Assembly (NCBI RefSeq): GCF_019059575.1
Contig: NW_024881565.1
Span: 1 to 64,000, forward strand
Source of the DNA: Amphibalanus amphitrite
Lineage: Eukaryota; Arthropoda; Thecostraca; Balanomorpha; Balanidae
Reading direction: 5' to 3'
Length of the DNA: 64,000 nt
In this document: positions 183-51,400 of the stretch, piece after piece
Numbering within the stretch: position 1 is the first letter of the stretch
How the letters are laid out: every line of letters begins with the position of its first letter
The notes under the pieces: model-generated
Told to the model about the DNA's origin: nothing
The model's input: the letters and a program-made list of their open reading frames with translations, nothing else
Databases searched by the model: none
Program-made: the position numbers and the translations under genes

Positions 183-419
183 TTAACCCGCGCCGTGCTA
201 ATGGCCTGTGTTTTCCGTGTCGTGCTAGGGGGGGGAGCGTTTTCATGCCTTCCCCCCCCCCCGTCTAACTCGGCTCCTGGGCCACGTAGTGACACGCGGT
301 AAGTGGCAATCGAAAGAGCGTCAAAAATAATTACGCTTTGGTCATTTTTCGCGAAAGCCTAAGGGGGACGTAAAAACGCCCCGTCTCCTCCCCCCCCCCC
401 CTAGCACGGCAAGGGTTAA
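183..419. mobile_element. piggyBac-like MITE, 237 bp, TTAA to TTAA
   Basis: Flanked by TTAA at 183-186 and 416-419. The left end reads CCCGCGCCGTGCTA; the right end in reverse complement reads CCCTTGCCGTGCTA. The word CGTGCTA occurs again about 33 bp inside the left end, just before a G run, with a matching C run at the right. No coding capacity. The interior resembles 3760-3825 (shared GACACGCGGTAAG and GAGCGTCAAAAA). The superfamily is inferred from the TTAA target and CCC ends; no transposase is present. Confidence 0.75.
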
Positions 420-681
420 AAATTGAATACATTTAGGTATTCAGTGCAGTTCAGTATACACCAACACACCGAATAGCAGCACTTTCAGCAGCGGCACCAG
501 ACCTGTCGCATCACTCGGCGCGGCTGACAAAGGTCACCAGGCCGACCTCGATGCAGGGCGGAACTGTGACCTTTCCGCGCGGCCAAAATGGTGTGCCGGA
601 TGGCAGCGGTCGAGTGCCTTCCTCCCCACGAGTGCGATCCTGCAGCACCCGTGCACCGTGCGCGCCAGGTGATGTACTCAC

Positions 682-48400: not shown

Positions 48401-51400
48401 GTAATGTAATATGTTGTACTGTAATTTGTTGTAATGGTAATCTGTGTAATTTATTTGTAATACATATATTTTTAGTGCTTTGACAGGCTGATGAAGGCTA
48501 TTTTATAGCATGCACTCGCCTCGGCAATTGTTTAGGAATTTGTTTACGGGCGTTTTCGTTAAAGGTACATACCTACTGACGTCTACTAATAAGAAGATGC
48601 ACTTGCCAAATAACACTACATAGATGCTAGGGTTCGCCATCATCTCTGTTGTCGCCAGTTAGTAGGAATAAGGCCTCAAAACGTATTATCCTTCATGAAG
48701 TATATCCACTCGTACCTAGGAAATAAGTACCTACCTATACAATATCTTAGCCCGCGCCCTGGTGGGGTCTGTTTATAACGCGACCTGGTGGGGGGGGGGC
48801 TATTTTTTGCCCCCCCCCCCTCGTATCTCCGAAACTACTGGACGGATCCAAAAAATTCAAACGGCGTTCGAAAGGCCTGTCAAATTTGTCGAGGGAAACC
48901 AAATTTCATTGACCTCGGGGTCACCGATGACGTCACAGGTCAGGTCAAAGATGAAATGTTTCACCGTTCACGGGTCTTCTAGGGAATGCGCTATAACACC
49001 GAGGAAAACGCATTTTGTCGGGAATCAGCGATAGGGCGTCAGTTGCCTAGTAGATATGTTGCTGTTAGAGGTCACTGGTCATACCAGGTCAGGTCACAGG
49101 TCAGGTCACCAAAGGTCACCAAGGGTCACCACATGAATCCAACTTTACTAAGGTTATGCGATGCATGTTTTATGGCCAGTTTTTCATTTCCAACTCAATG
49201 GTGTTGGTTATAAGACCATCAGGTACGGTTTAGGCCACTTTCTGGTGGAGGTCAGGTCAAGGTCAGGTCAAAAAAGGTCAAATTTCAAAGTTGATATTTT
49301 TGCATAAAATGGGTATTGATTCGATGCAGCTCGTCACGGGGAGTCTAATGGTGGTCTTTGTTTTGCGCTACGAGGTCTAGAATTGCTGAAAATTGAGTTT
49401 GAAAATTTGACGTCATCAATTTTGAACAGTTTTTTCGCTATAACTTGGCCAAAAAAAGAGGTATCGATCTCAAATTTGGTATGTAGATAGAAGGTGGCAA
49501 GGACTATCACATATATTCCGGTTTTTTTCGAAATTCAAAAAACTTTTTTGGATTTTTTGGCTATTATATTCAAAAAATCTATTTTTTTGATTTTTGGGGT
49601 CAAAATCCAAAAATTTCAAAAATCCAAGATAGCAGTTTTGTAGCCCTGTCCATTCTACAGCTTTTATGTCGGTATCATTTTTCTGTATTTGCAAAGCTAT
49701 AGGCCTGACAGCTCTTCCCGCGAAACCCTTTTTTGGGTCGAAAACGGCAGAACATGACGTCACTCTGACGTCATTTCCGGCCAACCTATCATAGCCTTTG
49801 GAAAAAATTTTTGGTCACAATGTGTAAAATTGATGTCCGAGAGGGTACTGAAAGTTTGGTGACGATCGGCGCAGTGGTTCTGGAGATATATCGAAAAGTC
49901 TGGAGGGGGGGGGCAAAAAATAGCCCCCCCCCCACCAGGTCGCGGGTTAGGAGCTATAGTGGGTAGGTACTTATAGCAGGGGCATTCCACGATAGATCGA
50001 CCAAAGCTGTGCACCCTCATATTTTATTTTTCGCTCAAAATTCGTCTAGGGGGTTGTTTTGGGCCGGAAAGCCAGCTGTGGCGATGATTTTTTTTTTCGA
50101 CGAACGGTTAACGAGATATAGCCTCGGGCAATTTCTGGAGGTCACGCTTCAACCCTATGTTTGGCGGCTCATAACTCAAAAACTATTGACTTTTGTATAA
50201 GGATAACTTTATGTCTTCCAACTCAAAATCAACCAAGGAAACTTTTGGCTATCTCGGATTTTCGATTTTCGAAAATTTTGGTCACGTGACCTCTTGACCT
50301 ATTTTTTGAAGAGTGACCTTGACACTTTCCCACCTGAAAGTTAAAATTTGGTCTGATGACGATTCAAGCCTTATCAATGGTCGTTCATATGCGACAATAA
50401 AAAACATGGCTATCGGCCTGCATTGACCTCAGGTCAGGTCATCTTTGTGACCTGCCCATTATAAGTCAATGGCAAAAGTACCGGCTAGGCCACTAAAACG
50501 CATCGGACTGGTACAGTTACTTCATAATCATACCATACAGTGGCGGCGCCAGCCCCTCGTGACCAGTTAGGCACTCTGTCATGGCCAGACCGGGAGTCGA
50601 GGTACCCCAAGGAGTTATCACCAAGCTTAATTTGCCCCTATTGAAAAAAACTGTGTTCACCCGAAAATGGGAAAAATCATGCACAACCACAATCATACCA
50701 CCACTACCACCATGCCCATCACCACCAACATCACCATCATCACCATCACCACTACCACCACCACCACATCTCATACTTTAGCACCACCACTACCACCAGT
50801 CACCACCATCTGCATTCAAAGGAAAGACCTTTCCCAGGTGTCTTTGTGCATCAAGTGTCAAACTTTAAATAAGGTCATTGCCCATAATTCAAAGCCCATT
50901 TCCAACCCATATTAATAACAACAACAGGAAGTACATTTTCATATAGCAAAGGTGTGTAGTGTACAATCTACAAGAGCACAAATAGTACGCATGGTGCTAA
51001 TTCATAAATAGTATAAACTCATAAATAGTATAAAGCAGTACCAACTGCCAAAATAATGTACAAATTAAGGATACAAGCTTCAAGATAGCCACATTTAGGT
51101 ACTGGTCCTAGCAAAGATGTACCTAATTAGCTATATGGGCTGCAAGCACCAATCTAATCCAATGCAATCATATGGACATTTTATGACAAATGCAAATGGA
51201 ACCATCATCTCAGCATGATGCTGAATCAGAGAAAGGTTCAGTTGGCATGGTAAAGATTGCAGTGCAATATTAAAAACCAAATTTAAAAACAGCCCATACA
51301 GCCAAACACTGACCATGAAACAACAATGTGAATCGTTTTCAAGCATAAACACTGGATTCACCTTTCTATGTTTTTTCCAACATTAAACATTGAGTGTGTT

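Follow-up and report, generated by a model that had tools for sequence, protein, structure and literature searches.

Matched end words and probable exchange of bodies in piggyBac-type TTAA elements of the barnacle Amphibalanus amphitrite

The window analysed here is a stretch of 64,000 nucleotides from the barnacle Amphibalanus amphitrite (positions 1 to 64,000, forward strand, of contig NW_024881565.1, below C68, in the 807.55-Mb assembly GCF_019059575.1). Between positions 183 and 49950 it contains 12 complete elements, each with a long end in which a short word stands twice and a short end in which it stands once. These elements are non-autonomous piggyBac-type transposons, that is, TTAA miniature inverted-repeat transposable elements (MITEs). 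The polarity of the ends had been proposed from the letters of the window alone (the sequence-only reading), and it is present in all 12 elements; the end sequences quoted in that reading were recovered. Seven further single ends in the window are unpaired, at 3603 (-), 3692 (+), 9264 (-), 19687 (+), 22590 (+), 32461 (-) and 61036 (+). The target site duplication of piggyBac elements, TTAA, flanks eight of the 12 complete elements on both sides. Two others have another four-base word on both sides (ATAT at 28665 and TTAG at 48747), and the elements at 37940 and 42289 have mixed TTAA/TTAG flanks. A non-TTAA duplication (ATAA) also surrounds a full-length element outside the window, C702a (C702:41274-45361). 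Both ends begin with CCC in 12/12, in agreement with the CCC or CCT start of piggyBac terminal inverted repeats (TIRs). No transposase gene was found in the window copies. A Pfam scan of nine selected open reading frames returned no piggyBac match, with retroelement and hAT matches instead, and the Pfam search of the genome for the piggyBac transposase family, in which 116 of 232 candidates were scored, gave none on C68 among the matches listed.

The ends were compared in 31 complete elements, the 12 of the window and 19 from elsewhere in the genome (10 from random stretches and nine from a pattern list on contig C1). The outside sampling covered 20 random 10-kb stretches, 15 pattern-list picks on C1 and one further locus. 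Detection of an end required a palindrome of a G-run and a C-run, and the nearest convergent long and short ends were paired without use of word agreement. The pairing was edited by hand by adding the elements at 5683 and 42289, removing the false pair 3692-6613 and dropping nested and same-kind pairs. From a clustering of end cassettes by interior, whose alignment was too loose and lumped almost all interiors together, only the element listing was used.

Read inward from TTAA, the short end consists of a 7-base lead, a word of 6-7 bases and a palindrome built as G-run, loop and C-run. The long end consists of the lead, the word, a spacer of about 20 bases, the word again and the palindrome. 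The palindrome after the innermost word was absent from the sequence-only reading. The best inner match begins 25-27 bp after the outer word in 31/31 elements (27 in 19, 26 in 11 and 25 in one). Asymmetric ends of the kind known from T. ni piggyBac, with a repeat doubled at one end only and a palindrome at each, were thus observed in the 31 elements, the exception being the element at 42289..44361 (-; outer, inner and short words CCTGAC, CCTGGC and CCTGGC), in which the G-run palindrome of the short end was not found.

The words differ between elements and agree within them, as had been claimed, although the agreement is imperfect. The test took the first-listed element for each distinct short-end 6-mer, which gave 16 words over the 31 elements; the inner word was the one that matched best, without gaps, within a fixed stretch, own and shuffled pairs being treated alike. 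The mean mismatch between outer and short words was 0.44 of 6 compared with 3.51 after shuffling (shuffled minimum 2.0), and between inner and short words 0.75 of 6 compared with 2.31 (shuffled minimum 1.56); neither value was reached in 10,000 shuffles. The palindrome loops of the two ends agree as well, to a degree that none of 10,000 shuffles reached; this test covered 14 of the 16 families, two being left out for their long loops. The CCTGGCGGG family is an exception to this agreement of loops.

Homologous interiors with different words, also noted from the sequence alone, are real, and in one case they are explained by mosaic structure. The elements 9261..10255 (-; long end at 10255) and 35260..36254 (-; long end at 36254) have CCTGGCGGG ends and the body of the ACCGACGGG family. 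Their putative parents are L011_1070 (CCTGGCGGG ends, body X) and the window element 12763..15629 (+; words ACCGAC, TCCGAC and ACCGAC; ACCGACGGG ends, body Y), which are identical at 584 of 981 positions. An A-B-A arrangement of the two parent types fits 375/387 informative sites in 9261 and 379/390 in 35260, and 0/3,000 shuffles reach this fit. In 9261 the left breakpoint lies within 10147..10151 (element bases 105-109) and the right one within 9543..9559 (element bases 697-713). The corresponding intervals of 35260 are 36186..36193 (element bases 62-69, inside the palindrome) and 35540..35556 (element bases 699-715). The right switch point is therefore the same in both mosaics (element bases of about 697-715), and the left switch points differ. 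Across the genome, the CCTGGCGGG-type end with subterminal a gave 545 exact matches and the ACCGAC-type spacer with subterminal b gave 2,881, the reversed-pattern controls giving 0. As judged from these alignments, one parent type supplied both ends of 9261 and 35260 and a different one the middle; the words consequently stay alike without end-to-end copying. Element 12763 additionally carries a nested insertion of about 1.85 kb (window 13153-15006), absent from 9261 and 35260, that has the ends CACTGAAAACA...TTTTCAGTG and an apparent duplication of TG. The insertion resembles a CACTA/EnSpm-type element.

The second group with homologous interiors, clan A, is represented in the window by 5683..6613 (+; CGGCAC in all three slots; long end at 5683), 25348..26250 (+; ATGTGT in all three) and 28665..29417 (+; CCGTAT, ACGTAT and CCGTAT). 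The interiors of ATGTGT and CGGCAC elements are 93-95% identical, and each of the three words matches at one of six positions (3 pairs); the slot-by-slot comparison covers 14 of 17 pairs. Between 25348 and 5683 the interiors are 95% identical and the leads match at 7/7 bases. Altogether, ATGTGT and CGGCAC elements differ at 15 of 18 word positions and at several spacer positions. By eye, the change is abrupt: the two kinds differ in words, spacer and palindrome loops and are homologous again a few bases past the C-run at both ends. In the interior tree, an ATGTGT clade (support 94/89) is sister to a CGGCAC clade (95/91), the branches between them summing to about 1.5%, and CGGCAT elements lie outside both (100/100). 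The element L024_6154, with a CGTAT short end and the long end missing, is nested in the CGGCAC clade. Interiors clustering strictly by word, the pattern that would have made the words ordinary subfamily marks, was not obtained, since CGGCAY occurs in two separated places of the tree and a CGTAT short end sits among CGGCAC interiors. The clan A MITEs (rows ATGTGT 2, CGGCAC 2, CGTAT 1 and CGGCAT 1; the row L011_3573 has no search motif) have a common junction where the longer elements C702a and C778 depart. Provided that C702a, C778 and C527 represent the state before the deletion, this suggests that copies which were already non-autonomous changed their words. The difference in words between homologous interiors is also real for 5683, 25348 and 28669, here with no donor of the new ends found.

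Several side observations concern these copies. The left TTAA of 25348 is common with the neighbouring 24143-25351, and a single TTAA common to abutting elements was seen in seven places (window 9258 and 25345; L001 1545, L026 5324, L027 5651, L070 612 and L074 563); a TTAA at an element edge may be a frequent target. Truncated clan A elements at 19687-20541 and 61036-61891 are 99.9% identical to each other and, by eye, are embedded in a larger repeat with the inverted ends AAAAAAGCGGAATTAA...TTAATTCCGCTTTTTT. Their ends were set aside as candidates for autonomous elements: their mutual likeness and their likeness to L029 end at the same base (about 855), both inside the larger repeat. AGGTCA/TGACCT, a nuclear receptor half-site, looks dense in the interiors of 5683-6613, 25348-26250, 24143-25351 and others.

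The remaining elements of the window repeat the same end structure with other words. The smallest, 183..419 (+; 237 bp; long end at 183), has CGTGCT in all three slots. Element 7094..7977 (+; long end at 7094) has AGTGGC three times, the whole of TATTAGTGGCAGG being repeated. CCTGGT fills all three slots in 24143..25351 (-; long end at 25351), where the palindrome loop is CTATTTTTTG at both ends, and in 48747..49950 (+), which is 92% identical to it. A long end with body at 22590..23765 (+) is 87-91% identical to these two inward from base 41-47 and has another end module, with the word GCGGTGGG twice; no short end was detected for it. Element 37940..39118 (-) has the words CCCGTT, CCTGTT and CCCGTT.

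Full-length partners with such ends exist elsewhere in the genome. Matches to PF13843 (DDE_Tnp_1_7), the transposase domain of the piggyBac superfamily, were found at C527, C33 and C702. The element C527:290214-294184 has its short end (ACGCCT) at 290214 and its long end (ACGACC/ACGACC) at 294184. Its transposase of 646 aa contains PF13843 and matches T. ni piggyBac (PDB 6x67, E=2e-78) over residues 89-638, an alignment whose span, as distinct from single residues, includes the catalytic DDD and zinc-binding C-terminal regions. An NCBI protein of Amphibalanus amphitrite that is 98% identical to it is named piggyBac transposable element-derived protein 4-like. C33 (about 4.72 kb, 645 aa) has CCTGGT in all three slots, and its transposase shows 37% identity to the C527 protein. 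C702a has the words CCTATT, ACGTAT and CCGTAT, ATAA on both flanks and arms of the clan A type (5683/25348/28669); its transposase frame is disrupted and shows 53-58% identity to C527. The C702b transposase is 39% identical to C527; its short end, the only one seen, has CCCGTT as in 37940, and the short arm of 37940 is 91% identical over 587 positions to the stretch next to this transposase. Where both ends were seen (C527, C33 and C702a), 3/3 elements have the short end upstream of the gene and the long end downstream. C778 is interrupted by another element ahead of its long end. A copy of an additional family (L040 575, L060 259 and L078 259; outer word GTTGCTGGG, inner GTTTGCYGGG) is inserted, at L078, at a TTAA within C778. 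Transposase groups with plain ends and no G-run palindrome (kinds TTAACCCATTAGTGCCC, TTAACCCATTAACGCCCG, TTAACCCAGATCTGCCC and TTAACCCAGGAACGCCC; L046, L047, L048 and the flanks of C1201, C642, C852, C12:1327511 and C1:911083) were set aside as partners, several of them being seen at one end only. No clear end was found near C264, C12:1725887, C18 and C72 in the stretches fetched.

Because full-length piggyBac transposase partners carry such ends with different words, the words probably mark transposase families. The suggestion that words label subfamilies, each with a specific transposase, thus gains indirect support, as transposases 37-58% identical to C527 sit between other words.

A third case comes from two non-autonomous elements related to C527. 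L042 has the words of C527 and is 91% identical to it on each side, as measured over 317 aligned positions for the long side and 394 for the short one. It has no transposase gene, the ends of an autonomous element and an internal deletion, as is characteristic of MITEs; the window elements were compared with their partners on partial arms. L041 and L042 have both internal junctions relative to C527 in common, and their interiors are 93-95% identical, yet the words of L041 are different. At its long end, L041 agrees with L040 (the same long end on another body) at each of the first 26 informative sites, and then with L042 at 21/22. At its short end about 75 bases resemble L033 rather than L042 (by eye). 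Since both elements are non-autonomous with common junctions, their different words are not explained by separate autonomous lineages. The alignments point the same way as those of 9261 and 35260, toward an exchange of bodies.

The account that combines these results, piggyBac-type TTAA MITEs with matched end modules and bodies exchanged between families, is considered quite probable. By analogy with known piggyBac ends, each end is probably a transposase-binding module composed of a core-site word followed by a palindrome, the word being doubled across the spacer at the long end. Within the transposase, the core would recognize the word and the cysteine-rich domains the palindrome, and diverged transposases would entail diverged words. 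That the word sets specificity is inferred from piggyBac structures and from the different transposases lying between different words. Bodies may be exchanged by non-reciprocal recombination, either template switching in gap repair or ectopic gene conversion, with the switch point sometimes falling within the G/C palindrome. Only products with both ends fitting one transposase would multiply further. The words would then be alike within a copy because its two ends are inherited together, the interior being exchanged between families.

Several observations weigh against this account. One 6-mer occupies all three slots in 14/31 elements, and 17/31 have at least one unlike base; the outer and short words differ in 6/31, and the inner and short words in 15/31, by 1-2 bases. 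The words of C527 itself are unlike (ACGACC long, ACGCCT short), and the outer word is deviant in C702a and L041. For C53 and C542, whose transposases are relatives of that of C527 (52-65%), no such long end was found in the single 3' flank available per locus. The search for a donor of ATGTGT ends gave none: of the ATGTGT long ends observed, one from the window and four from C1, 5/5 have a clan A body. Finally, L011_2223 and 37940 have spacers equal at 19/21 positions, yet 2/6 bases differ in each word, with the same A-to-T in all three. This pair looks like stepwise co-change rather than exchange of cassettes; it fits ends that co-evolve with the transposase, or ends that are older than the interiors exchanged between them.

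Fast co-evolution, in which word, spacer and palindrome undergo point substitution along with the transposase while the interior changes slowly and no exchange between families occurs, is a possible but rather doubtful explanation. The identical base change in the three words of the L011_2223/37940 pair, with the spacer nearly intact, and the lack of a seen ATGTGT donor are in its favour, as are the end of clan A homology at the edge of the presumed transposase-bound module on both sides and the divergence of the transposases between different words (37-58% identity to C527). It does not account for 9261 and 35260 as A-B-A mosaics of CCTGGCGGG and ACCGACGGG elements, for the 15/18 changed word positions between ATGTGT and CGGCAC against branches of about 1.5% in sum, or for the different words of L041 and L042, non-autonomous elements with common junctions. 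These mosaics and common deletion junctions (L041/L042; clan A) also oppose the interpretation of ordinary subfamilies, where each word would belong to an independent deletion derivative of its own autonomous element and common interiors would reflect the ancestry of those elements. Such derivation is consistent with L042, which resembles a C527 deletion derivative with the same words, and with the matches of 37940 to the C702b short arm and of clan A to the C702a arms. As a general explanation it appears unlikely; it is contradicted for L041/L042, clan A and 9261/35260 and may still hold for families seen once.

It had also been proposed that one end is copied from the other or that the words pair by folding. 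With one end as template for the other, a new word would reach all three slots; in agreement with this, the slots of an element are nearly identical and change together. A copied tract would be expected to extend into the lead, the spacer or the flanking sequence. Inspection of the alignments, without a formal test, showed no such tract, and no direct sign of copying was seen. The long-end and short-end arms of 9261 and 35260 both derive from one parent, only the body having been replaced, so that copying is unneeded for 9261, 35260 and 12763, and 17/31 elements have an unlike slot. End-to-end copying is accordingly regarded as very improbable. Folding of the words is likewise unneeded and was set aside as the cause: the two long-end words do not pair with each other, because they are direct repeats (judged on repeat orientation alone). 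Body exchange between matched ends allows a further reading, for which the chances seem about even: the end modules would be exchangeable address tags of diverged lineages in one genome, the bodies would come from a common recombining pool, and an element would change its transposase by swapping all that lies between its palindromes.

Other features of the window lie outside these elements. The reading frame at 52483-55785 (-) is open over 1101 aa and contains endonuclease and reverse transcriptase domains; it is apparently an intact non-LTR (long terminal repeat) retroelement. Short exon-like frames on the minus strand at 511-867, 34222-34620 and 47070-47420 have a motif in common and perhaps belong to one gene family spread over the window; the frame at 34222 gave no Pfam match.

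The comparison with known systems begins with the same species. A survey of piggyBac elements in Amphibalanus amphitrite reported, in its accessible text, five types, three of them intact, with transposases of 506-645 aa and lengths up to 4732 bp (PMC10813416). The upper values are close to those of C33 (about 4.72 kb, 645 aa). The survey left MITEs out, and its accessible text does not describe three-word ends or mosaics (PMC10813416). Searches of an open-access library gave no title or abstract on three-word ends or on body exchange in these elements. In T. ni piggyBac, both ends have a 19-bp palindrome bound by the cysteine-rich domain (CRD), according to the accessible part of the structural report (PMC7351741). 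As described there for LE35/RE63, the short end has a tip, a core-site repeat and the palindrome, and at the long end an insertion and a second copy of the repeat precede the palindrome (PMC7351741). The barnacle elements resemble this system in their ends, in the TTAA target and in the transposase sequence, which matches over the core and the C-terminal part. They differ in having a G-run/loop/C-run palindrome in place of the 19-bp repeat, and their words and loops vary between families within one genome. The piggyBat element of Myotis lucifugus is similar in that a repeated GCGGGA motif followed by imperfect palindromes is read by core and CRD; as far as its description is accessible, it has three motif-palindrome pairs at one end and no such palindrome at the other (PMC11707139). 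Its transposase match to C527 is weaker (E=3.2e-30).

The closest parallel in the relation of ends to interiors is found in the CMITEs of Acropora corals. In the accessible text these are piggyBac-type MITEs at TTAA with an interior more conserved between families than the TIRs, a feature whose cause was left open by the authors; one family shares its TIRs with a full-length piggyBac-like element, and one element has an interior resembling that of another family (PMC2872659). CMITEs are about 100 bp long, and no duplicated word at one end is described for them in that text (PMC2872659). In contrast to what is accessible on CMITEs, the barnacle mosaics occur together with both parent types and point to exchange of bodies between matched ends. 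New in the barnacle, relative to the coral elements, are the more detailed anatomy and a route that is documented for one case. How non-autonomous transposons change the transposase on which they depend is an open question, which the barnacle case addresses: with parent types and mosaics in one genome, the route of exchange can be traced base by base, and mosaics with kept matched ends suggest a way in which one body becomes common to different transposon families. Should words and palindromes be transposase-specific, the barnacle offers a ready series of end/transposase pairs with which to study DNA recognition by the core and by the zinc-binding domain. The reading of the end modules as address tags, if true, would explain the coral case and make this natural series one of mutually specific piggyBac pairs.

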